Positions 22,980 through 33,490 of a stretch of DNA of 64,000 nucleotides are shown piece after piece. Source of the stretch: Pontibacillus halophilus JSM 076056 = DSM 19796 (GTDB taxonomy: Bacteria; Bacillota; Bacilli; Bacillales; BH030062). The stretch covers positions 1 through 64,000 of the forward strand of contig NZ_AULI01000015.1 in the NCBI RefSeq assembly GCF_000425205.1. The letters run 5' to 3'. The translations under genes were made by a program, and so were the position numbers. The first letter of the stretch is position 1, and each line of letters opens with the position of its first letter. The notes beneath the pieces are model-generated. The model searched no databases. It was not told the origin of the DNA and was given only the letters and a program-made list of their open reading frames with translations.

Positions 22980-24260
22980 TTAGAAAAGAGATTTTATTTT
23001 AGGGTATTTGCCATGCAGGTACAAATCATCTATCCCCTTACCATGACTCTGGTCCCATAAGATAAGGTTTGCACGCATATTCTCCTTCTTTAATTCAGCG
23101 ATTAGCTGCATTAAATGACCTTTAACGTGAACATTGTCGTTAGCATCCATATCAAAGCAAATATTTACGACCTTTACCCCCATTTCCTTCAAGATGGGAA
23201 TCGCTAACCTCCAAGCTCCTACTCCTGGTACTGATACTATTGTATCACCAATTCCTTTAAGTTCTTCGTAATTATAGCGTTTAACTAAAAGGTCAGATGT
23301 AATATCACCCTTTAAGGGACCTTCGCCAATCCAAGCCACGTCAGTTTTGTATAGAGTTCCTTTTTCCCAATGCTTTAACTTTTCACTAGGGACGGAAATG
23401 TGTATAGGTGCTGGACTTCCAGAAGCCGTTCCTTTTGGTTTATTGGCTGAGCTTAACCAAAAATAGCGTGTCCCCTTTTTAATACGTACCCAACCCAAAA
23501 CTTCACCTTGCTCGTTTTCAATGGTGTGATGTTTTTTGGATACCTCCATGTTCCCTTCAAAAACAACCTTATCCTTGAATGTAACTCTAACTAAGTTAGG
23601 CTGTTCTATAATCGTTGCCTTTAAGCCTTCCTTACGTACTTTTATATGCGCTTCATAATACACCTTGTCTATACGGTATTGGAATCCGACGATTTGGTTG
23701 TATTGATTTCTGAAAGGTATTAATATACCTTTCGCTCCGGCTAAGCTAAAGAGCTTACCGTATTTACCATCCATTTCATAGAAGCCTGGTATGCCCTCAA
23801 AGTCAGTCTTATTTAAGTCCTTTGATATGGCTTTAACAATGTTCCAAGGCTTATCAGGAAAACTTTTATACTGTCTCGTCATAATTTGTTCATCAGATAG
23901 TTGACGATCTTCTGAACGTAAGTGATTAAGATGATCTTGCGTCAATGGAGCGTAGTTAAGTAAAGAACGATAGACTGAATCTAACTCATCGTCCCCTCTT
24001 TTCTCCGCGCCTGCAGCAACCTTGGCTTTATCTATTTTCTTAGGTTTACCCTTTAAGTAATGAAGCCAACCAGGAACTGCACTGTTCTTGCCAAATGGCC
24101 TGTCACTTTCTGTCCGAATACATACAACCTTGTTGCCATCCTTGTGAACCATACATGCCCCGGTGCTATTACATATAGGACAAGCTTCACGATAATACTC
24201 ATAGAACACAACTTCTTGTGTTTCCTTATCTCTTATACTAGTCGGTCTTAATGTGTGCAT
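22980..24260 (-). CDS. DUF3854-type zinc-finger and Toprim-like protein
   Basis: 426 residues. An N-terminal zinc-finger-like group (C27, C30, C36, C47) is followed by a linker. A C-terminal Toprim-like domain (about 305-420) shows WIGEGPLKGDI and VNICFDMDAND, the Glu and Asp-x-Asp of the Toprim fold. This combination is found in DUF3854 proteins of phages and plasmids, thought to be primase-like or nuclease-like replication factors. The middle domain (about 165-300) is not recognised. ATG follows AGGAGGAT. The gene is preceded by an attenuator-type leader. Confidence 0.75.
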   Translation of the reverse strand: MHTLRPTSIRDKETQEVVFYEYYREACPICNSTGACMVHKDGNKVVCIRTESDRPFGKNSAVPGWLHYLKGKPKKIDKAKVAAGAEKRGDDELDSVYRSLLNYAPLTQDHLNHLRSEDRQLSDEQIMTRQYKSFPDKPWNIVKAISKDLNKTDFEGIPGFYEMDGKYGKLFSLAGAKGILIPFRNQYNQIVGFQYRIDKVYYEAHIKVRKEGLKATIIEQPNLVRVTFKDKVVFEGNMEVSKKHHTIENEQGEVLGWVRIKKGTRYFWLSSANKPKGTASGSPAPIHISVPSEKLKHWEKGTLYKTDVAWIGEGPLKGDITSDLLVKRYNYEELKGIGDTIVSVPGVGAWRLAIPILKEMGVKVVNICFDMDANDNVHVKGHLMQLIAELKKENMRANLILWDQSHGKGIDDLYLHGKYPKIKSLF

Positions 24261-24314
24261 TGTAATCCTCCTAAAAAATTAATTGTCTTTATCCTGTCTA
24301 CACCTTAGACAAAT

Positions 24315-24402
24315 AAAAAAGCGGTCTATTAGGTGTGATTCGTCCACAGATAAGTAAAAATACATACTTATAGTGTTAAAACCACAGTCCAATAGACCGC
24401 TT
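24315..24402 (-). promoter_or_regulatory. Leader attenuator-type hairpin before the DUF3854 gene
   Basis: Minus-strand outer arms AAGCGGTCTATT/AATAGACCGCTT enclose inner pairing (GTGGTTTTAACACTATAAGT region) and end in six T residues. The start codon is about 55 bases further on. Confidence 0.8.
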
Positions 24403-24501
24403 CATATATTTGTAGAAAACCTGCTGGTTCATTACCGCGAGACATAAGATAAAAGTATTAATATACACCTAAATCTTAGCATAAATGGCAGATAAAATCA
24501 T

Positions 24502-26034
24502 CTAATTTTCTCGCTGAACACTCTCAATCATTTTCATGTGAAAATGTTTTGATCTTCTCATTGGAAGAAGTCCATTTAAGATTTTATGTTTTATTTTATT
24601 GTTATCAATGATCGTGGTCCACGTTTCTTCTCCTAACACTTCTATTGCTAGGTTGTAGAACGAATCGTGGAACTGATTCAGTGCTTTCTTATGGTAGAGT
24701 AAGGGCTTGTCTCCAATATTGTTATGGAGCACCTCTTCATGGGATAGATAGTGCATTCCTTTACCGATTAAAGGGAGGTTTAATGAATCTGCCAATACTT
24801 CAGGGGTACTATTACTCCCGTATTGGTTAAATAGTAACTTACAGTTAATGTTTTTCTCCTGTATCAGTACTTTATGGATAAAATCCTTGAACTCGAGAGT
24901 GTCATATACGCAATCAGAACCAACAATCCATAGCTCGTCTATATGATTCAAAGAATGTAATGTGTACTCGTTCATATCACCAGATTCTAAATCTACAAAT
25001 AATAAGTCATGTAGCTTTAAAGTGTTCATATAAAACTCTATTTGAGTACTGTCCCATTTCGATATATGGTCCTTCAAACCAAAGGGAAACCATCTAACTC
25101 TCTGGTACTCCAAATTCACACTTTCAGGAGGGATAGAGTGATCGATGAGGAAATTACTGAACGGGTTCCATCTTTCTAAACCATTCGTCTTATACCTCGA
25201 CATAGTTTCCTCAAGCCTTGCTTTACGTGTAATTCCTTCGAGCACCGCAATTGGTATGTGATATCTAGCTAAGAACATTGCGAAGTTTTGAATGAACGTG
25301 GAGACACCATTACGAGCTGGAGACCAGACTCCAATACTTTTAGGTTCTGTAAGCTTGGTTTTATAGAAAGGGATTTCTAGGTAATGTTTCAGCTGTTTTG
25401 CTCTCTCTAGAAAGCGTTCACGCTCTTCATTCTGTTTGTCCTCTTTGTTCCCTCTGCCCTCTTTATCTTCAATATCATCTTTACCCACTTCTGAGTTAGG
25501 AGTCTCAGGCTGAGTCTGCAGTTGGCTGCCCTCTTTAGTTGCTTCCTTCTCCCTCTCTGGGCTTTCGTAAGGAAGCGGTTGTTCATGTGTTTCTGTTATT
25601 TCATCTTCCCCTTCAGGTGGTGCTTCATTATCGCCTGGAGGGACATAAGGTAAATCTACATTGAAATCCAATGGAAGTTCCAAATCTTCATTAACGTCGT
25701 TCTCTTGACTACTACCAGTTAGCCACTCTTTGAAATGTTGATTAGCAGAGTTGAATACTTTGATTTTCTCATGAGTTTCTGTATTTTCATCGGAGAAGTA
25801 GATAAGATGCTCTATAGAAGTAAATTCTTCGACTAGCTCTAAGAGCTTAATATCATTCACTAAACTTTCTTGATCTAAAGCTACTAAAGAGTACTCCGAG
25901 GATTGTAAAGTCAAATCTAAGTCGCTGAAATCAGTTACAGAGACGACTTTAACCTCTTCATATACCGCTCTTAAAGCATGTTGTACTTCTCGCGACATAT
26001 CAGCATTTATTATATTGATAAGCGCATTACTCAT
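24502..26034 (-). CDS. TadZ/CpaE-like ParA-family ATPase
   Basis: 510 residues. Residues 1-105 resemble a receiver-type domain (atypical). A long Glu/Pro/Lys-rich disordered linker (about 130-205) follows. The C-terminal domain (235-480) looks like a ParA/MinD fold, but the P-loop reads SPARNGVSTF instead of KGGVGKST, so the signature lysine is missing. LLFVDLESGD has a Walker B-like Asp, and LLFNQYGSN is where the usual adenine-binding segment would be. TadZ and CpaE (pilus localisation) share this domain order. No pilus or tad genes are nearby. It is co-transcribed with the XRE gene, 7 bases away. Confidence 0.6.
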   Translation of the reverse strand: MSNALINIINADMSREVQHALRAVYEEVKVVSVTDFSDLDLTLQSSEYSLVALDQESLVNDIKLLELVEEFTSIEHLIYFSDENTETHEKIKVFNSANQHFKEWLTGSSQENDVNEDLELPLDFNVDLPYVPPGDNEAPPEGEDEITETHEQPLPYESPEREKEATKEGSQLQTQPETPNSEVGKDDIEDKEGRGNKEDKQNEERERFLERAKQLKHYLEIPFYKTKLTEPKSIGVWSPARNGVSTFIQNFAMFLARYHIPIAVLEGITRKARLEETMSRYKTNGLERWNPFSNFLIDHSIPPESVNLEYQRVRWFPFGLKDHISKWDSTQIEFYMNTLKLHDLLFVDLESGDMNEYTLHSLNHIDELWIVGSDCVYDTLEFKDFIHKVLIQEKNINCKLLFNQYGSNSTPEVLADSLNLPLIGKGMHYLSHEEVLHNNIGDKPLLYHKKALNQFHDSFYNLAIEVLGEETWTTIIDNNKIKHKILNGLLPMRRSKHFHMKMIESVQREN

Positions 26035-26041
26035 TGGTTAG

Positions 26042-26266
26042 TCAATCCTCCACATATAAAGGATACTTATTCTTTAAGAAGACATGTATTTTCTGTCTTG
26101 TCTTATCTGATATTTTTTGTTCGTTGTTTTCGATTAGCCATATTAATCTTTGGGATATTCCTAACGCTTCTGCAAATTGAAATTGATTGAGTTTGCAGCG
26201 TCTACGTATTAGCAACAACGCTTCTTGTTCGCTATCCACTTTGATGCTATCTAGCTTCAAGACCAT
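26042..26266 (-). CDS. XRE-family helix-turn-helix regulator
   Basis: 74 residues: a single five-helix Cro/C1-type domain (ALLLIRRRCKLNQFQFAEAL, then GISQRLIWLIENNEQ). Most likely a DNA-binding repressor of its own operon and perhaps of the divergent Rad52/DnaN/E2 operon, whose promoter is 200 bp away. The N-terminal 12 residues are outside the HTH. ATG follows AAGGAG. Confidence 0.85.
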   Translation of the reverse strand: MVLKLDSIKVDSEQEALLLIRRRCKLNQFQFAEALGISQRLIWLIENNEQKISDKTRQKIHVFLKNKYPLYVED

Positions 26267-26301
26267 TTCAACTCCTTACGACGAAATATATGATTGAATA
26301 C

Positions 26302-26350
26302 AAAAAACGCTCAACAACTGCACCTGTGTCCTACAGATGAGTGTTGAGCG
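26302..26350 (-). promoter_or_regulatory. Leader attenuator-type hairpin before the XRE/TadZ-like operon
   Basis: Minus-strand CGCTCAACA/TGTTGAGCG outer stem with an inner stem (CATCTGT/ACAGGTG), then six T residues, ends about 35 bases ahead of the XRE start. Confidence 0.8.
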
Positions 26351-26388
26351 GGGTACGCTTTTCTACGGATATAGATGATTTGGAACCT

Positions 26389-26394
26389 ATTATA
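26389..26394 (-). promoter_or_regulatory. -10 element of the XRE/TadZ-like operon
   Basis: Minus-strand TATAAT preceded by TGC, an extended -10. The leader hairpin starts 40 bases downstream. Confidence 0.55.
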
Positions 26395-26436
26395 GCATAA
26401 ACGATGGTTTATATGTGTACGATAGGAATAATATTC

Positions 26437-26465
26437 TTGTTAACGGCCTATAGAAAAGCTATAAT
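26437..26465 (+). promoter_or_regulatory. Promoter of the Rad52/DnaN/E2-JAB-E1 operon
   Basis: TTGTTA (26437-26442), 17-bp spacer, TATAAT (26460-26465). It drives a leader of about 220 bases before the first gene. Confidence 0.7.
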
Positions 26466-26500
26466 AGTTTCATAGATTTCTTTGTTTTTCTTTTTGATTC

Positions 26501-26522
26501 GCTACTCTTACTATGAGTAAGC
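26501..26522 (+). promoter_or_regulatory. Shared leader hairpin (copy B)
   Basis: GCTACTC-TTACTAT-GAGTAAGC, the same stem with bulged A as at 18878-18897, 35 bases after the -10 box and 26 bases before the leader terminator, again after a U-rich stretch. Confidence 0.6.
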
Positions 26523-26548
26523 TGGAGTTACTAATAATAAAAATTCGC

Positions 26549-26624
26549 ACCTATGTGGTCGATTGGATATTTAGAGATACCTGTCATTCGTATCTTTAAT
26601 CAATCAGACTACATAGGTTTTTTT
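26549..26624 (+). promoter_or_regulatory. Leader attenuator-type hairpin before the Rad52-like gene
   Basis: Outer arms ACCTATGTGGTCGATTG/CAATCAGACTACATAGGT with inner stem (TAGAGATAC/GTATCTTTA), then seven T residues. It is a complete intrinsic terminator about 70 bases before the first start codon. Confidence 0.85.
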
Positions 26625-26693
26625 ATTTTCTCTGGTGTAGCGGAATGAAGGACGAAGGAGTCTTTTTTTATCAATTTTTTAGGAGGATGATTT

Positions 26694-27662
26694 ATGAGTG
26701 ATTTAAGATGGGACGAAATTATGCGCAAGTTGCAAGAGCCCTTTGAACAAAAGGTTGTGAAGTGGAGGTTGAATCGAGCTGTTAAGACTAATAAGGGTTA
26801 TAAGGTCATTCTTGTACCTTACCTAGATAAAAGCTCAATTCAAGCGAGACTAGACCAAGTAGTTGGACCAGCTAATTGGAAGAACGAATACCAAGAGTGG
26901 AGACAAAACGCTGTATTATGTGGGATTTCTATCCGAGATCCATTCACTAATGAGTGGATAACCAAGTACGATGGTTCGGATGAAACGGAATATCAATCGA
27001 CCAAAGGAGGTTTTACCGGTGCTCTTAAACGTGCAGCAAACGTTTGGGGAATCGGACGCTACCTCAACGACATTGGTGAAGTATGGATGGACGTCAACGA
27101 AAACGGTAAGAATTATTTTAGTACTACTGTTAAAGAAGGCGATAAAAAGGTCCCTATAAAAGGAAAGTATGACACTCCTACTCTGCATGAGCGATTCATG
27201 CCCAAAAAAGGGAACCAACATCCCGATAGTCAGAGCAAGGAAGAAAGTCAAAGAGAAGAAATAACCCGAGCCCAGATTTTAAAAGGTGTTAAATCTAAGC
27301 TAGGAATTATCGGGATAACTACTCAACCAATATGTCTTCAGGTGTTTAAGCAAGCAAATCCTGACACTGAAATTGAAACTTTAAAAGAAATTGGTGAGAG
27401 CGCTACATGGAACGAGCTGAAAAACTTCTATGAAGCTCTCAAACCTGTAGCGGGCATTATTTTTTCTGCTAAGAAGCATAAAGTTAATTTCAAAGAAGTG
27501 GTTGATTTCGTTCAATTGATTAAACCAATAGACACCATTGACTCAATGAATGCGTTGTTCTTTAAATTGTCCAATGATGATGTAGTTAGAGTTAGTGATT
27601 ACATTAAAGATTGTTGGAGAGCTAAAAGAGACAATGGTGAATTTGAAAACCACGCATCATAA
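26694..27662 (+). CDS. Rad52-family single-strand annealing protein
   Basis: 322 residues. The first 160 match the Rad52/Rad22 DNA-binding domain: NKGYKVILVPYLDKSSIQ, a TKYDGSDETEY stretch followed by GGFTGALKRAANVWGIGRYL, typical of this family in phages and plasmids. Residues 165-320 form a helical region that may bind a partner. Such proteins anneal single strands and promote recombination; on conjugative plasmids they are proposed to protect incoming ssDNA. It is the first gene of a seven-gene operon. ATG follows AGGAGGATG. Confidence 0.85.
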   Translation: MSDLRWDEIMRKLQEPFEQKVVKWRLNRAVKTNKGYKVILVPYLDKSSIQARLDQVVGPANWKNEYQEWRQNAVLCGISIRDPFTNEWITKYDGSDETEYQSTKGGFTGALKRAANVWGIGRYLNDIGEVWMDVNENGKNYFSTTVKEGDKKVPIKGKYDTPTLHERFMPKKGNQHPDSQSKEESQREEITRAQILKGVKSKLGIIGITTQPICLQVFKQANPDTEIETLKEIGESATWNELKNFYEALKPVAGIIFSAKKHKVNFKEVVDFVQLIKPIDTIDSMNALFFKLSNDDVVRVSDYIKDCWRAKRDNGEFENHAS

Positions 27663-27686
27663 ACAAATTTAAAACATGGTTAAGTA

Positions 27687-27718
27687 GCACAAATGACAGT
27701 TGTTCATTTGTGCTTTCT
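27687..27718 (+). terminator. Hairpin between the Rad52-like and DnaN genes
   Basis: AGCACAAATGA/TCATTTGTGCT with a seven-base loop, then TTCTTTATT. It lies between stop and next start in the same operon, like other leader hairpins in the window, and could set the relative levels of the two products. Confidence 0.75.
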
Positions 27719-27739
27719 TTATTATTAGGAGGAATTAAG

Positions 27740-28924
27740 ATGGAATTTACAATTAATCAGAGTGTATTAGTAGAAGGTTTAAAAGCAGTAAAAGGACTTG
27801 TGGCCAAACCTGGAAGTAGCAACCCGTTATTAACCGGTATCCTCATTGAAGCGGATAACAAGGAAATTAAATTGACCGCTGGGAACGGTAATAACTTTAT
27901 TACTTACGGGATTGATATTAAAGATCATGAAGATTGCTCTATCACCAAACCAGGAGCAGTCGTTTGGCATAAGACGGTTACAGATATAGTGAACAAGTAT
28001 AAAGACGCTACTCTCTCGTTTAGCAAGAATGAGAAAGACTTCACTACTATTAAATCCGGTGCAGATGAATTTGAAATGGCTGGGTTCAATGCAACAGAGT
28101 ACCCTACTCTGGCTGACTATGACTCTCAGAATGCATACACCCTACCTGGTGATGTATTTCAAAAGCTAATCAAACGAACTGCCTTTGCTGCTTCTGAATC
28201 AGATACGCGCCCTATCTTGAGTGGTGTTCAATTTGAATTCCAAGAAGAAGGCACGTTATGTACTTGCACTGACTCGCATCGAATGGCTCGAGTTAAAGCT
28301 TCGACAACCAACTCTAACGAGCAATCCATTGTGGTGAAAGCTGAAAACGTTAAAGAAATGGCCAAAGTATTTGATGTAACGAAAGAAATCGAGTGCTTCT
28401 TGGAACAAGATAATTTACTAATAGCCAAATCAGACAATGTGGTGTTCTATGTACGGTTACTTGAAGGGAATTATCCTGATGTTTCAAAGTTAATCCCTCA
28501 AGAGTTCCCATCTAGAATCACGTTGAATAGAAATGATCTGCTGCAAGCGGTCGATAAAGTCAATATCTTGTCTAAGACGTCCGGTTCCGCAACGGCTATT
28601 AGGTTTGAGCTTGATGAGAAGAGCGCAGATCTCTTTTCTGTAGGCGATGAGGGAACAAACAACGTGGTTTCTCTTTCGGTAGCTCAACAGGATGTAGGCA
28701 AAGGGAATGCAAACATTAGAGTGTCTGGATTAGAAGGAGATACTGTAGAGACTTTTGCTTTTAATGGACGCTTTCTACAGGACGCTCTACAAGCTATGGA
28801 GAGCACGGAAGTAATGATATGTATTCAGGGTCCGATGAAACCATTTTTAATTATTCCTAAGCACGAGACAGATGAACGAAAAATGGAAGAGATTCAATTA
28901 ATCTTACCAGTCCGCTTATATTAA
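27740..28924 (+). CDS. dnaN: DNA polymerase III beta subunit (sliding clamp)
   Basis: 394 residues, near normal clamp length (about 370-380). Shows the three-domain clamp pattern: KPGSSNPLLTGILIE, FASESDTRPILSGVQFE-like segment around 155-170 (FAASESDTRPILSGVQFE), and the C-terminal MKPFLIIP. It confers processivity on polymerases. A plasmid-borne clamp is uncommon and suggests a dedicated replication or repair need after transfer. ATG 27740 follows AGGAGGA. The chromosomal copy should still exist elsewhere; identity to it cannot be judged here. Confidence 0.92.
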   Translation: MEFTINQSVLVEGLKAVKGLVAKPGSSNPLLTGILIEADNKEIKLTAGNGNNFITYGIDIKDHEDCSITKPGAVVWHKTVTDIVNKYKDATLSFSKNEKDFTTIKSGADEFEMAGFNATEYPTLADYDSQNAYTLPGDVFQKLIKRTAFAASESDTRPILSGVQFEFQEEGTLCTCTDSHRMARVKASTTNSNEQSIVVKAENVKEMAKVFDVTKEIECFLEQDNLLIAKSDNVVFYVRLLEGNYPDVSKLIPQEFPSRITLNRNDLLQAVDKVNILSKTSGSATAIRFELDEKSADLFSVGDEGTNNVVSLSVAQQDVGKGNANIRVSGLEGDTVETFAFNGRFLQDALQAMESTEVMICIQGPMKPFLIIPKHETDERKMEEIQLILPVRLY

Positions 28925-28969
28925 TCTCGAAGAAAGGTGATTTACCTTTCCATTCTGAGGAGGATGTAT

Positions 28970-29299
28970 ATGTCAAAGATATTTTCCCATGACCTTTTCA
29001 AACAAGGGTTGAAAAGATATAAAAATGAGCCGCTCCGTTTCACGGACGGCTTCTTTACTTGTGTAGACATCATTAATCATTCGTTATATGTAAATGAAAT
29101 TGACTTTGATTCATTTACGATGGAGGACTTAGAACTAGCTAATGCACAATTCGAAAGGCTGATACCGTCTGAAGACGAAAGCTATGCTACTGAAAACGCG
29201 GGAAACATCTTCTACGAGAGTATCCGGATGTTACATGTGCATGAAGAAATAAGTCTTAACAAACAGAAACAATATCCTGTATTGGATGATTTCATTTGA
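28970..29299 (+). CDS. Hypothetical protein in the DnaN/E2-JAB-E1 operon, 109 aa
   Basis: Acidic, helical and without cysteines in the second half. No family recognised. It has none of the marks of a ubiquitin-like protein (no C-terminal di-glycine; ends in LDDFI). ATG 28970 follows GAGGAGG at the normal spacing. Its stop overlaps the next start by one base, so translation is coupled to the 29299 gene. Confidence 0.6.
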   Translation: MSKIFSHDLFKQGLKRYKNEPLRFTDGFFTCVDIINHSLYVNEIDFDSFTMEDLELANAQFERLIPSEDESYATENAGNIFYESIRMLHVHEEISLNKQKQYPVLDDFI

Positions 29300-29874
29300 T
29301 GACTTTAGGAGCGTTGGAATTGTATCTATATGACCACGAAACAACTGCTTATAAAAGAGTTGGCATAGAAAATCTAAAAATACTGAAGTACTTACACGAT
29401 GAAGGTATTAGCGTGAAGGCTCCCCACTGGGATTACTTTGTAATGGGATACGATCCTTCCCCAGATATTTTCAAAGAAGCCTTAGAAGCTATGTCGAAAG
29501 GTGAAATCGAGGTAATTGATATTTTTGAGAATGGGGAAAACCAGCCTGATATACAAAACATGATCAAAGTCACTAAGAACTTACCTGAAAACGTATTAAA
29601 GCTTTCTTCACCTATCGTGTCAGAGGCAATGGAATGGTGTACGAATGACCAGCTAATGTATCTTACATCACTGATAAACAATCGGGGGTTGTATGAAACA
29701 GGATGTCTATTTAATCGGGATACGAACACCTTGGATGTAGGCTTTACTTATCCAGAAGTATCGCTCGATATCATTATCGCGTTTCAGACGTTATTAAGAG
29801 CTGTCCAAAAATATACGAATGAGCAATTTAAGAGGAAAGGAACGAATACGAATGACCATTCAAATCACAATTAA
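29299..29874 (+). CDS. Hypothetical protein in the DnaN/E2-JAB-E1 operon, 191 aa
   Basis: Soluble protein with mixed helix/strand prediction and a Gly/Asn-rich turn near residues 140-150; no known family. It is translationally coupled on both sides: the ATG overlaps the previous stop, and the E2-like gene starts 23 bases before its end. By position it corresponds to one of the accessory genes preceding the E2 in PRTRC operons, but no sequence similarity is claimed. Confidence 0.6.
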   Translation: MTLGALELYLYDHETTAYKRVGIENLKILKYLHDEGISVKAPHWDYFVMGYDPSPDIFKEALEAMSKGEIEVIDIFENGENQPDIQNMIKVTKNLPENVLKLSSPIVSEAMEWCTNDQLMYLTSLINNRGLYETGCLFNRDTNTLDVGFTYPEVSLDIIIAFQTLLRAVQKYTNEQFKRKGTNTNDHSNHN

Positions 29875-30544
29875 CGACGATTTAAGTCGGTTTTCTGATT
29901 ATGTAAGTGTAAAAGATATTTCATCGGATGGAAAGGTGGTAAAAGAAGAGTATTTGATGACTGTGGACCAGCTTGTAAGTGTCTTGCAGCGTAGTGAATA
30001 TTCTCCAGCAAACGAACCTAGTATACCTGTCCAGTCCCCCATTCTCCCTGATAACGGGTTCAAGCATGTGTGGAGAGAACAAGGGCAGACACAAGACGTT
30101 TACACCTTCGTACCAGCTCAACAATATGATATTCGGGTTCATGATACGTTCATTGAGAATGTAGGATTTCCAAGTATGATCTTTTGCTATCAATTGGATG
30201 ACAGTAAGATAACAAACCTTCGTGTAGTAGCGGTTAAGGAAAAAGACATGTCTGAAATCAGCGAGAACACTGAGATATACAGATTCCCTTTTTCTAACGT
30301 CCAAAGAAGTGAGGTATGTATGGGAGCGAATCCATTCCCGAAGATAGAAAGTGTAAGGGAATTAAAGACTTTGCACAACTTCTTTATAACAATCCCCTTC
30401 ACTAACGAGTGGTTTGATGCGAATAGTAACAATTCAGATGTATATGACTTACGCGAGCTGTTCAATTCAGTCCAAGGACAGGCTTTCCCAACAGAATGGT
30501 TAAGTAGTGAGGGCATTACTTTCAATCAATTTTTCAGATATTAG
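29852..30544 (+). CDS. E2/UBC-like protein, PRTRC system protein B type
   Basis: 230 residues. Residues 85-220 fit the prokaryotic E2 family D (PRTRC protein B): a strand with FPSMIFCYQLD, then IYRFPFSNVQRSEVCMGANP, where C156 is the expected catalytic cysteine, then helical HNFFITIPFTNEWF. Residues 1-80 are a separate strand-rich region. E2 enzymes carry activated ubiquitin-like modifiers. JAB and ThiF/E1 genes follow directly. ATG 29852 follows AGGAAAGGA. The family call rests on the Cys motif and gene order; activity is unproven. Confidence 0.72.
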   Translation: MTIQITINDDLSRFSDYVSVKDISSDGKVVKEEYLMTVDQLVSVLQRSEYSPANEPSIPVQSPILPDNGFKHVWREQGQTQDVYTFVPAQQYDIRVHDTFIENVGFPSMIFCYQLDDSKITNLRVVAVKEKDMSEISENTEIYRFPFSNVQRSEVCMGANPFPKIESVRELKTLHNFFITIPFTNEWFDANSNNSDVYDLRELFNSVQGQAFPTEWLSSEGITFNQFFRY

Positions 30545-30589
30545 AGTGGATCAATCAATTATAAAACGAACTTTTAGGAGGAATTTAGG

Positions 30590-31576
30590 ATGGAACAATT
30601 TAATTTATTAGGTGATTTTGGTATGGAAGAAGCAACAGAGGTTAGTACTACAGACAAAGCCAAGAACAATAAGAAATCTTCTACAACAAAGCCTAAGGAT
30701 GATTCCAAAAGTGTTGGAGATAAATTTGAGGTTAAATTGGATACAATTATCCGTTATGCAGGTGTTTCTCACCCAATTCGAGCCTATTTTGATGAGCTTG
30801 AGATTAAAGAGGGTATTGAAAAAGATGGGAAGCGGGTAACTATTGCAGCGGAAGATGTACGCGAGAGAATGGAGAAAGAATTAGTAATATTTGATGATAA
30901 TACGACCGTCGGCCCTTATATTGAATTGATTAAAGGGTATACAGACGTAGTTTATAACACCGAGCGAAATATAATAATTCCTTTACCCATCAGCAAGAAA
31001 AAAGGAGCAAAAGACTTATGTATGGAGACGGCAAATGCTGTCTCTTTTTTACGAAAAAGAATTCCATTTGAACTTTTCTTGGACTTCTTACGTGTAGCAT
31101 ATCATTATTCTAACCATTATGGTACAGAGGTGAAGGGCGATATTTTCTATAATCATGAAAGTGATGAGTATGAGCTCCATATTCCACACCAAGCTGTTAG
31201 TTCTGTTTTGGTAACAGACGTACAACATAGTATGGATGTATTCACAGGTCATCATACCCTTTGTATGGAGATTCACTCCCACCATGTACTACCTTGCTAC
31301 CCTTCTGCGACCGACGACGAAGACGAACAACGCCCCAACATCGTGTATGGCATTGTGGGCAATTTTCGTAACCGGTTTGATTCGGAAGTGTATTTGAGAG
31401 TGTATAAAGACAACAGATTCATTAAGATCCCCCTTTCACTAGTCTTTTGTAAACCCACGTCGAAACAAACTGCAAATTATTCAATGCTTATAGGAGCACT
31501 GAAACAAGGTTTAGAAGAGGATCTTGCGCAGGTTTCGATAATGAGAGACAAAACGAATGAAGGGGAGTGGTCCTAA
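30590..31576 (+). CDS. JAB/MPN-domain metalloprotease-like protein, PRTRC system protein A type
   Basis: 328 residues. The C-terminal half carries the JAMM zinc motif H-x-H-x7-S-x2-D exactly: H229, H231, S239, D242 (IHSHHVLPCYPSATD). JAB domains cleave isopeptide bonds of ubiquitin-like modifiers or mature them. Residues 1-45 are a Lys/Thr-rich linker; residues 45-130 are a separate region of possible beta-grasp character (see findings). ATG 30590 follows AGGAGGA. Its stop overlaps the ThiF start by one base. Confidence 0.8.
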   Translation: MEQFNLLGDFGMEEATEVSTTDKAKNNKKSSTTKPKDDSKSVGDKFEVKLDTIIRYAGVSHPIRAYFDELEIKEGIEKDGKRVTIAAEDVRERMEKELVIFDDNTTVGPYIELIKGYTDVVYNTERNIIIPLPISKKKGAKDLCMETANAVSFLRKRIPFELFLDFLRVAYHYSNHYGTEVKGDIFYNHESDEYELHIPHQAVSSVLVTDVQHSMDVFTGHHTLCMEIHSHHVLPCYPSATDDEDEQRPNIVYGIVGNFRNRFDSEVYLRVYKDNRFIKIPLSLVFCKPTSKQTANYSMLIGALKQGLEEDLAQVSIMRDKTNEGEWS

Positions 31577-32451
31577 TGACTATGAAGCCCGTAAAAATAA
31601 ACATCCTCAAAGATTTCTTTAATGAACGCAGACAGAAGCTATTCCTTCAAATCATCCAATGTGGAGCAGGTGGGAATGGTTCTTATGTAGTTCAGCAGCT
31701 GGCTCAAATGCTCAGTATATTTGACGTAGATTGCAGGTATATCATTGCAGATAATGATGTATATGAAGCTAAAAACAAAAGAAATCAATTAATACTAGAT
31801 AAGGATATTGGCGAAAAGAAAGCCAGAGTCCTCTCAGAGCGTTACAGGGGTGCTTTTCAAGTAGATATAGGGTATTACGACCATGAGTTTGTAGAAAGCG
31901 CAGAGACCCTCGAAAAACTATTTAAAGAAACGCCTTATTACTCAAGGGACCTTGATTACGTAATCTTACCGGTTTTATTAGGTTGTGTAGATAATAATTA
32001 TTCCAGACAAATCTTTCATAAATACTTTGAGGAAGCTGAAAACTTGCTTTACATTGATGTTGGAATAGAAAGTGCTGTAGTACCTCCAGGCAAGTCCGTT
32101 TCTAATATGGCAGAATGGACAGAGGAAGAAGTCCATACCTTCAAAAACACTGGATTTACTGGGCAGGTAGTAGCTGGATTGAAGTTGAATGGAGAAACAG
32201 TCGTTGAACCGCTAGCAGAGGTATTCCCGGATGTTCTTAAAGATAACGATACCATTGCGCCTTCAGAAGAAGCGTGCAGTACAGTTGTCATATCCAATCC
32301 GCAACGTGTGTTAACAAATAGACTTGCAGCTCATTGCATGTGTACGTACCTCAATGAATTCTTTGAGTCGGGTACCTTGAGCAATCATGTTACGTTCTTT
32401 CATTCCAAGAAGAATATCGTTCGTACAGAACCAATAAAAATGAACATGTAA
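31576..32451 (+). CDS. ThiF/E1-like protein, PRTRC system type
   Basis: 291 residues. GAGGNGS at 30-36 is the ATP-binding loop of E1/ThiF Rossmann domains, and IIADNDVYEAKNKRNQ fits the following strand and Arg finger region. The C-terminal part has EEACSTVVISNPQRVLTNR, where the Cys may be catalytic, followed by helix MCTYLNEFF typical of PRTRC ThiF. E1-like enzymes adenylate the C-terminus of a ubiquitin-like or sulfur-carrier protein. Start ATG 31576 overlaps the JAB stop. It ends the operon; a terminator follows. Confidence 0.82.
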   Translation: MTMKPVKINILKDFFNERRQKLFLQIIQCGAGGNGSYVVQQLAQMLSIFDVDCRYIIADNDVYEAKNKRNQLILDKDIGEKKARVLSERYRGAFQVDIGYYDHEFVESAETLEKLFKETPYYSRDLDYVILPVLLGCVDNNYSRQIFHKYFEEAENLLYIDVGIESAVVPPGKSVSNMAEWTEEEVHTFKNTGFTGQVVAGLKLNGETVVEPLAEVFPDVLKDNDTIAPSEEACSTVVISNPQRVLTNRLAAHCMCTYLNEFFESGTLSNHVTFFHSKKNIVRTEPIKMNM

Positions 32452-32466
32452 TAAATAGAAACACAA

Positions 32467-32501
32467 AAGGGCTATTGGTGACATACCAATAGCCCTTTTT
32501 C
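32467..32501. terminator. Bidirectional terminator after the E1-like gene
   Basis: AAAAGGGCTATTGGT/ACCAATAGCCCTTTTT hairpin with a five-base loop, between the plus operon and the convergent minus-strand gene ending at 32551. Confidence 0.9.
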
Positions 32502-32550
32502 ACTTTTAATCCTTTAATACCGTTCTCAGAAAGATACTTCTTGTTACAAT

Positions 32551-33477
32551 TTATTTAGGTGGTGTGTATATAAGTGACCCCTCTTGTAGCGGAGCTATGC
32601 GCACTAAAACATTGTCACTATCCTTAATAGTGAAGCGGTTCTTAATTGAATTAACCAATCTATCACATAGGTTAGATAAAGCCCAATCACCAAATATATT
32701 CTCTTCAAGAGTTAGAGTTAGTAAGAATTGATCTTCTTCTGCTGTTAGGCCTTGTTGGTGGTAGCGAGGATAAGATTCAAACATGGACTGGACGGCTTCT
32801 TTTGTAAAACGTTGAACGTTTAGTGTGCCTAAATAATCCTTCCTCGGCTCGTGTGTCGCCCACTCATGCAAAGACCATACCTCGGAATTCCCCTCAGAGT
32901 ATAGGCTTGAAAAGTAATAGTCAGGTAGCACAAAAAAGAAATCATCAGTACGGTGTAATAAACCGCTAATACTGCTCTCTTTCATAGGTGTTTCGCTCAA
33001 GCTTCTGGAATCTCGTTCTTTCTTAAAGCGGTGTAAGGCTCCAAGCATCATACAATCCAATCTCACAATATGTAAGATGGAACCTGCTGCTTCATACTGC
33101 TCCATAATCATACCCTCGAATGACTCTAACATTTCTCCTGAAGCTAATTCATCAAGAGGTTCACCATCGTTTAGAATGTGGTGTAACTGCTCTTTAATAA
33201 TCCCCTCTGGTTGTTGTAAAAAGCCATCCATGGCTTCAATGTTATCTAAACTTAAGTATTCATCGACTAAAAAATACCCCTCTAAAAAAAGTTCTTGATA
33301 ATAACTAAAGAATGCTTCGGTAATCTCTTTACGGTCGGCACCAGGTCTTACAATTTGGAAAAATTTCTCCCGATAGTACTCAAAGTTATTGTTTATTATT
33401 AACTTAAACTCATCACTATTGTTTAGCTCTTCTGTCAATTCATTTAAACACTTTTCGTATCTCGCTTGTTGTTCCAT
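32551..33477 (-). CDS. Hypothetical protein, 308 aa
   Basis: Acidic, largely helical soluble protein with aromatic-rich segments and a basic C-terminus (about 260-308). No family recognised. ATG 33477 follows GGGAGAT; an upstream in-frame ATG at 33501 has no ribosome site. It forms a unit with the lipoprotein and the 34093 gene on the minus strand. Confidence 0.55.
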   Translation of the reverse strand: MEQQARYEKCLNELTEELNNSDEFKLIINNNFEYYREKFFQIVRPGADRKEITEAFFSYYQELFLEGYFLVDEYLSLDNIEAMDGFLQQPEGIIKEQLHHILNDGEPLDELASGEMLESFEGMIMEQYEAAGSILHIVRLDCMMLGALHRFKKERDSRSLSETPMKESSISGLLHRTDDFFFVLPDYYFSSLYSEGNSEVWSLHEWATHEPRKDYLGTLNVQRFTKEAVQSMFESYPRYHQQGLTAEEDQFLLTLTLEENIFGDWALSNLCDRLVNSIKNRFTIKDSDNVLVRIAPLQEGSLIYTPPK

Positions 33478-33490
33478 ATAACCATCTCCC

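Follow-up and report, generated by a model that had tools for sequence, protein, structure and literature searches.

A probable ubiquitin-like conjugation system linked to the DNA sliding clamp in a PRTRC-related cassette of Pontibacillus halophilus

A set of seven genes on the forward (+) strand, at positions 26694-32451 of a 64,000-nucleotide stretch of Pontibacillus halophilus JSM 076056 (contig NZ_AULI01000015.1, positions 1 to 64,000; hereafter the window), probably encodes a ubiquitin-like (Ub-like) conjugation system related to the PRTRC systems, in which the modifier is made as a fusion protein, is likely to dock on the sliding clamp and would be conjugated to the clamp or to other proteins of replication and recombination. 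A check of the open reading frames (ORFs) located the set where an original prediction, made from the sequence alone, had placed it, and both the ORF coordinates and the Pfam and NCBIfam matches bore out the seven genes and the families proposed for them. The anatomy of the system, namely its parts, the fusion, a conserved (K)G boundary, intact catalytic motifs and a recurrent neighbourhood of dnaN and clamp-loader genes, is well supported by sequence comparison. Large plasmids commonly carry PRTRC gene sets (one PRTRC ThiF finds matches in 379 plasmid records at E <= 1e-10, a count in which the PRTRC identity is not confirmed for each record), and we know of no function for this widespread system. 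A modifier with a clamp motif, encoded beside a spare clamp gene, makes a sharp hypothesis for PRTRC function that is simple to test; if true, it would provide the PRTRC system with a function and bring clamp-linked protein modification to bacteria.

The modifier and its clamp-like motif had been overlooked, as they lie in the N-terminal part of the protein described as JAB (gene 30590..31576). There is no stand-alone Ub-like gene within the operon because the Ub-like domain is fused into this protein, which became visible through related cassettes: in most Bacillota relatives, the product of the 'JAB' gene comprises a tail, a Ub-like domain and a JAB protease domain in a single chain. In the window the Ub-like domain occupies residues 46-139 (30725..31006) and ends with K137-K138-G139, directly followed by the JAB/JAMM metalloprotease domain (31007..31576). 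K138-G139 is invariant in 13 of 13 aligned sequences, and G139 in all 25 sequences of another alignment. In its AlphaFold model, the window protein exhibits, behind a disordered tail, a strand-strand-helix-strand-strand arrangement at residues 53-133, mostly with high confidence; the strand order is only consistent with a β-grasp fold. Relationship to PRTRC_C, the modifier of the PRTRC systems, is supported by profile searches. A PRTRC_C profile of ten rows, with no Bacillota plasmid sequences and with three rows taken from repeats of a Bacillus phage protein, ranks the Bacillota Ub-like proteins directly after its own members among 9610 ORFs (L129, 9.9e-5; L134, 2e-4; L133, 2.3e-4). The relative in locus L134 matches both PRTRC_C (4.4e-4, score below the cut-off) and PRTRC_A (2.4e-15) in one protein, and that in L129 matches PRTRC_C at 0.0017, also below the cut-off. 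In the reverse direction, the Bacillota Ub profile detects the phage protein at 5.5e-10 summed over its repeats, with single repeats reaching only 0.1-0.36. This protein, from Bacillus phage vB_BauM_KLEB27-3 (L011 3712-4419), contains four near-identical tandem Prok_Ub repeats, each ending with GVKG and joined as ..GVKG/MAR.., and exceeds the cut-offs of both PF14454 (5e-27) and PRTRC_C (61 bits, cut-off 45.95). The repeat gene is followed by an ORF ending with EDDFI, similar to the third gene of the window operon, and then by genes with E2, JAB and ThiF.

The Ub-JAB fusion, the split genes of some relatives and the phage poly-Ub gene together mark a likely processing site. In relatives with a split gene, the first ORF frequently terminates at the (K)G boundary or shortly after it, and the free Ub-like proteins end with ..GGAKG* (Metabacillus), ..GAKKG* (B. 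paralicheniformis), ..GTAKGLM*, ..GTSKGAL* or ..GTSKGCF*. Free PRTRC_C proteins end with GTKG (Piscinibacter, Vibrio), GAKG (Polaromonas), KTKG (Methylomonas) or GIKG (Tunicatimonas). Apart from the 56 Ub ORFs fused to JAB, in which JAB is present by definition, a separate JAB ORF was found in the locus of all 15 free Ub ORFs that are broken or extend beyond the boundary, a set that includes four broken copies (L027, L056, L057, L132) and three without KG (L061, L063, L066), as compared to two of the ten that end at the last glycine. Of these ten, a profile identified four (L021 and L119, with JAB; L007 and L129, without), the other six were assigned by position and C-terminus (L008, L014, L058, L069, L135, L136), L135 and L136 are apparently the same element, and the JAB profile was built from the fused family, so that divergent copies could escape it. 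JAB occurs beside the overrunning or broken Ub ORFs and mostly not beside those that end with glycine, as would be predicted for a maturation protease, and this gene structure suggests that the modifier is matured by JAB. Removal of the modifier is a likely second role of the enzyme, because in Pseudomonadota, where Ub is free, JAB (PRTRC_A) is present as well. Eukaryotic polyubiquitin and ubiquitin-fusion precursors release their modifier at the terminal glycine, and here too the modifier is apparently freed at a terminal glycine, with KLEB27-3 providing the tandem repeats; on the other hand, the fusion partner in the Bacillota cassette is the protease itself, and the terminus is KG rather than GG. 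Among the cassettes with a free Ub-like ORF, the viral contig L069 (5599-11508, from IMG/VR) carries a Rad52-like gene, a Ub-like ORF ending with HKKG, ThiF, E2 and an SSB-like gene, and no JAB was found on it; an ORF of this contig (7677-8648), picked by eye as a candidate clamp, was rejected (probability 1.7; no DnaN match, 0.085) and left out of all counts. In L135 and L136, from the same phylum, a free Ub-like protein ending with EKMG is followed downstream by dnaN and an SSB-like gene ending with DDDEIPF, and no JAB was found in the cassette.

The tail that precedes the Ub-like domain is likely to dock the modifier on the clamp, judging from its motif and from the genomic context. The pentapeptide by which proteins bind bacterial sliding clamps follows the pattern QL[SD]LF, and a strict form, Qx[SDN][LIM]F, occurs in the tail of 27 of the 50 non-redundant family members (four ORFs with partial Ub matches, L027, L036, L058 and L069, were skipped and three of 53 tails dropped as duplicates). 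Over 1000 shuffles of the tails the mean count was 0.08 and the highest 3; 1.06% of 1231 other ORFs have it within their first 60 residues. When a larger set, without the phage repeat protein and partial matches, was clustered by Ub-domain identity at 40%, 7 of 12 members retained it (shuffle mean 0.02). A looser form, Q-x-x-[LIM]-F, begins within the first 20 residues in 44 of the 56 proteins having it. The relatives exhibit QTDIF, QLSLF, QMDLF and similar peptides, and the window protein has QFNLL at residues 3-7 (30596..30610), which resembles the QMSLL of E. coli MutS. In the predicted structure, residues 1-10 have an average predicted local distance difference test (pLDDT) score of 56, and residues 11-43 stay below 50. 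Outside Bacillota, proteins encoded before the Ub gene end with QLSLF* (Planktothrix), QVQMF* (Vibrio) and SKSLF* (Methylomonas), which is only suggestive of a clamp-like motif in these proteins as well, and their counterparts in Polaromonas, Tunicatimonas and Pseudoalteromonas fit the motif poorly.

The second line of evidence for the clamp comes from neighbouring genes. The second gene of the operon (27740..28924) encodes a three-domain DnaN of 394 amino acids, which scores above the NCBIfam DnaN cut-off and is a second clamp of this genome, the one other dnaN being located on contig C1. To study other cassettes, E2 loci were picked by Prok-E2_D alone, regardless of dnaN. This domain is encoded by a single gene in the P. 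halophilus genome and occurs in 9 of the 299 genomes searched for the order, 14 of the 398 for the class and 3 of the 398 for the phylum (the own genome included in each), and by none of 14 control genomes. The ThiF family TIGR03736 was rejected as a counting marker: 316 of 398 genomes match it, none above the cut-off, since relatives of ThiF are everywhere. Outside the own genome, dnaN lies at most 6 kb from E2 in 16 of 24 loci, and for 11 of these 16 the probability of such closeness by chance, estimated from contig positions with rounded locus coordinates, is 0.001-0.077 each. In sets chosen by ThiF, the fetched stretch contains dnaN for 28 of 41 genome loci and for 11 of 20 Bacillota and Actinomycetota plasmids, the match being weak in two of these plasmids; the same plasmid underlies L020 and L068, and the E2 and ThiF samples have several genomes in common. 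The arrangement varies, from Rad52 and DnaN upstream, as in the window, to DnaN without a recognized Rad52 (Brevibacillus), to nine loci (one plasmid twice) in which Ub-JAB, ThiF, dnaX and holB are consecutive, with a weak dnaN match behind them in seven; in L012 and L060 the dnaX/holB genes overlap ThiF. Among PRTRC loci of other groups dnaN was found in three of ten: directly behind ThiF in Vibrio (PF00712, 42.1 bits, cut-off 24.4), directly before ParB in Pseudoalteromonas, and near the head of the operon on viral contig L100. The original prediction of a modifier pathway tied to replication or repair is therefore upheld in so far as neighbourhood and motif link the cassette mainly to the sliding clamp; Rad52 is present in only part of the family, and nothing specific supports an action on incoming DNA. 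A tag that singles out clamp-associated proteins for degradation or unloading, as in PCNA-coupled ubiquitination, would also account for a clamp motif on the modifier, and dnaX and holB after ThiF in another lineage would suit a control of clamp loading and unloading; we regard this explanation as unlikely, since no Clp, Lon or proteasome-like gene was seen in the (incomplete) gene tables of another set of 24 loci.

The three enzymes of the operon retain their catalytic residues. The E2-like protein (29852..30544) matches Prok-E2_D (PF14460) at 1.7e-11 with 44.6 bits, above the cut-off of 25, and its best NCBIfam family is PRTRC_B (TIGR03737; 1.2e-10, 41.1 bits, curated cut-off 131.45); the candidate catalytic Cys156 is invariant in all 22 aligned sequences from Bacillota, Actinomycetota, Pseudomonadota and Cyanobacteriota. 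The JAB domain lies marginally under the Prok-JAB cut-off (2.4e-5, 24.6 bits, cut-off 25) and is closest to PRTRC_A (4.6e-9, 36.1 bits, curated cut-off 101.8). Its JAMM motif (E180, H229, S230, H231, S239, D242) is invariant in the alignments of 13 and of 25 sequences, and the structures nearest to its predicted fold are those of AMSH, Rpn11 and archaeal JAMM1 (Z about 12), from which it differs by the N-terminal Ub-like fusion and the clamp motif; Foldseek matches of the model include BubCD (9ea4) and a bacterial Ubl-deubiquitinase (8tyx). The E1-like ThiF (31576..32451), with a GxGGxG nucleotide motif, likewise scores slightly below its Pfam cut-off (PF00899; 2.3e-6, 27.4 bits, cut-off 28.1) and best matches PRTRC_ThiF (1.4e-13, 50.7 bits, curated cut-off 144.75); G30, G32, G35, D59, D61, R89, D139 and C234, the last being the candidate thioester cysteine, are invariant in 18 of 18 sequences. 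The residues named in the original prediction (C156 of E2; H229, H231, S239 and D242 of JAB) were thus correctly chosen, and a PRTRC family is indeed the best NCBIfam match of each enzyme, so that the PRTRC relationship withstands the refuting condition set with that prediction. A pathway for a sulfur carrier of the ThiS/MoaD type, instead of protein conjugation, could employ a similar set, as ThiF-type E1 and JAB proteins also serve sulfur carriers (PMC1779556); the presence of an E2 with an invariant cysteine, together with the lack of any rhodanese, sulfur or cofactor gene among the seven, makes it highly improbable here.

To our knowledge, the bacterial sets of Ub, E1, E2 and JAB studied so far act in defence, CBASS conjugation (PMC10097602) among them, and this role, together with the mobile context, argues for a module that defends against phages or other plasmids in the manner of the Bub/Bil systems. 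The E1/E2/JAB logic is indeed shared with Bub/Bil and CBASS conjugation, but the family set differs, none of the seven proteins has a match in PADLOC-DB (the 2023 library, which may lack such models), replication genes are found among the neighbours, and a phage itself carries the set; a defence function hence appears quite unlikely.

For the conjugation reading, which we prefer, the following order of events can be envisaged. The JAB domain would cut after Gly139 and free a modifier composed of the tail and the Ub-like domain; ThiF would adenylate Gly139 and hold the modifier as a thioester, probably on C234; E2 would pass it from C156 to lysines of the target; and JAB could take it off again. 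With a clamp motif of its own on the modifier, conjugation would be expected either to take place at the sliding clamp, on the clamp itself or on proteins at work there, or to tether the target to it; the plasmid DnaN and the Rad52-like annealer seem the likeliest targets, along with other replisome proteins. Such modification would control plasmid replication or recombination, by a logic comparable to that of the ubiquitin and SUMO marks on eukaryotic PCNA. Common to both would be a Ub-like conjugation tied to the replication clamp; the differences are that here the modifier itself bears the clamp-binding-like peptide, the clamp is bacterial, and no E3 was recognized. The more general proposition, that PCNA modification has a bacterial counterpart in PRTRC-type systems, with a self-docking modifier that is matured by a fused protease and controls how large plasmids and some phages replicate and recombine, we put forward tentatively, giving it slightly less than an even chance.

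Several observations weigh against this reading. The window protein has a variant motif, QFNLL, which does not fit the strict pattern. Some Ub-like proteins end without KG, namely with ..EKNN.. (L061, L063, L066), ..KTNG (Pseudoalteromonas) and ..GTKA (L100). The window Ub-JAB protein matches no Ub model of Pfam or NCBIfam, PRTRC_C included, and the hhalign comparison of the Bacillota Ub alignment with PRTRC_C (60.5% probability, E 8.4e-5) covers 25 columns only. The scores of E2, JAB and ThiF are all far below the PRTRC curated cut-offs. For 5 of the 16 loci with a near dnaN, contigs are just 6-44 kb long and closeness tells little (chance at least 0.14); the dnaN matches in Pseudoalteromonas and L100 are both below the NCBI DnaN cut-off; and for the other seven of those ten PRTRC loci outside these groups, the fetched stretch contains no dnaN. 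All neighbourhood counts are inflated and not independent, because related plasmids share backbones and ancestry. In an alternative explanation, conjugation is real, but clamp, clamp-loader and Rad52 genes merely share the replication module of large plasmids and the tail motif serves something else. A backbone does recur in Bacillaceae plasmids, with a helix-turn-helix gene before Rad52, a DUF3854 gene, and an integrase behind the cassette, and dnaN is absent from the 6 kb around E2 in 8 of the 24 loci (three of them, L119, L120 and L130, are cut by a contig end near the cassette). However, the link to the clamp returns in differing arrangements (dnaN upstream, dnaX/holB downstream, and the cases of Vibrio, Pseudoalteromonas and the viral contig), and the tail motif persists after the proteins are clustered; we therefore judge a mere sharing of the module to be rather unlikely.

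Judged by its sequence scores, the cassette is a divergent Bacillota branch and not PRTRC in the strict sense. It shares with PRTRC the best-matching families (PRTRC_B, PRTRC_A and PRTRC_ThiF), the order of E2, JAB and E1, the location on large plasmids and, as judged from its relatives, a PRTRC_C-related Ub-like domain, mostly with a C-terminal KG. It differs in the fusion of Ub to JAB, in scores far from the curated cut-offs, in an extra helical protein, in the presence of Rad52 and DnaN in the operon, and in the lack of any recognized ParB, E or F among the scanned proteins (for ParB and E, no NCBIfam match among the ten proteins at 22980-33480). A Gram-positive cassette resembling PRTRC, as originally claimed, is hence present, and the type had already been listed for Gram-positives: row 6d of Iyer et al. 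(2006; PMC1779556) describes an operon of a Ub-like protein, JAB, E1, E2 and a helical protein, whose holders include the low-GC Gram-positives 'Bcer and Bthu', by our reading Bacillus cereus and B. thuringiensis, and in which a small protein on its own constitutes the Ub; that paper uses the word 'clamp' a single time. It is our analysis that equates this operon type with PRTRC (TIGR03735-TIGR03738, TIGR03741). In the literature searched, none of the 26 papers that mention 'PRTRC' pairs it with 'clamp', and 'PRTRC' with 'ubiquitin' occurs only in an unrelated paper; later papers by the same group may already report part of this. We consider three features to be new, namely the fusion of Ub to JAB, the presence of a clamp motif on the modifier and the linkage to the clamp.

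The remaining genes of the operon are a Rad52/Erf-type single-strand annealing protein of 322 amino acids (26694..27662; Rad52_Rad22, 8.8e-14) and two proteins without a match in Pfam, NCBIfam, PADLOC or PHROGs, unk3 (28970..29299) and unk4 (29299..29874). Unk3 is small and all-helical, with no Foldseek match of its model at E <= 0.001, and its conserved feature is the C-terminus: F-[FIL] ends 44 of 46 unique tails as compared to 37 of 2809 other ORFs. An acidic tip of the SSB type was considered and rejected, since only 21 of the 46 tails are acidic, others are basic (KKRRFF), and only the terminal F-[FIL] is conserved. Unk4, of 191 amino acids, sits at the position of PRTRC_F without detectable similarity to it, and this identity was likewise discarded after comparison of an unk4 profile (20 sequences) with eight F-position proteins (probability 0.1). 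One-base overlaps or coupled starts between most genes, as earlier noted, were an overstatement: three of the six junctions overlap (by 1, 23 and 1 bases), and gaps of 77, 45 and 45 bases separate the genes at the remaining three, with a terminator-like hairpin (27686-27714) between rad52 and dnaN. The window also encodes a Rep3-type initiator, an actin-like protein, a TraG-type coupling protein, a topoisomerase and a type I methylase, a gene content that fits a large conjugative plasmid. In four relatives (L014, L018, L020, L025), group II intron reverse transcriptases are encoded in the cassette or some kilobases from it, in L018 between E2 and JAB.

Upstream of the operon, a promoter-like site (TTGTTA-17-TATAAT, 26437..26465, + strand) matches the consensus at 10 of 12 positions; the promoter claimed for the operon thus has a candidate, but such sites are no commoner in the region than in shuffles (14 versus a mean of 20.6). 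The site is followed by a structured 5' leader upstream of rad52 (26485..26640, + strand), comprising a small covarying hairpin of the GC-RACY..RGTY-AGC type and a long terminator-like hairpin with a T-run. Rfam yields no match anywhere in the window, the leader included. The leader is kept upstream of rad52 in nine aligned relatives (L004, L005, L016, L017, L026, L028, L039, L041, L048), two-sided changes occur in at least one of the ten sequences for 14 of the 24 consensus pairs, and RNA folding of 26460-26700 gives a z of -5.27. Because of the terminator-like hairpin with its T-run in a conserved leader, the element is likely an attenuator. At its other end the operon is closed by a strong terminator-like hairpin (32465..32499, listed on the + strand), which is scored on both strands.

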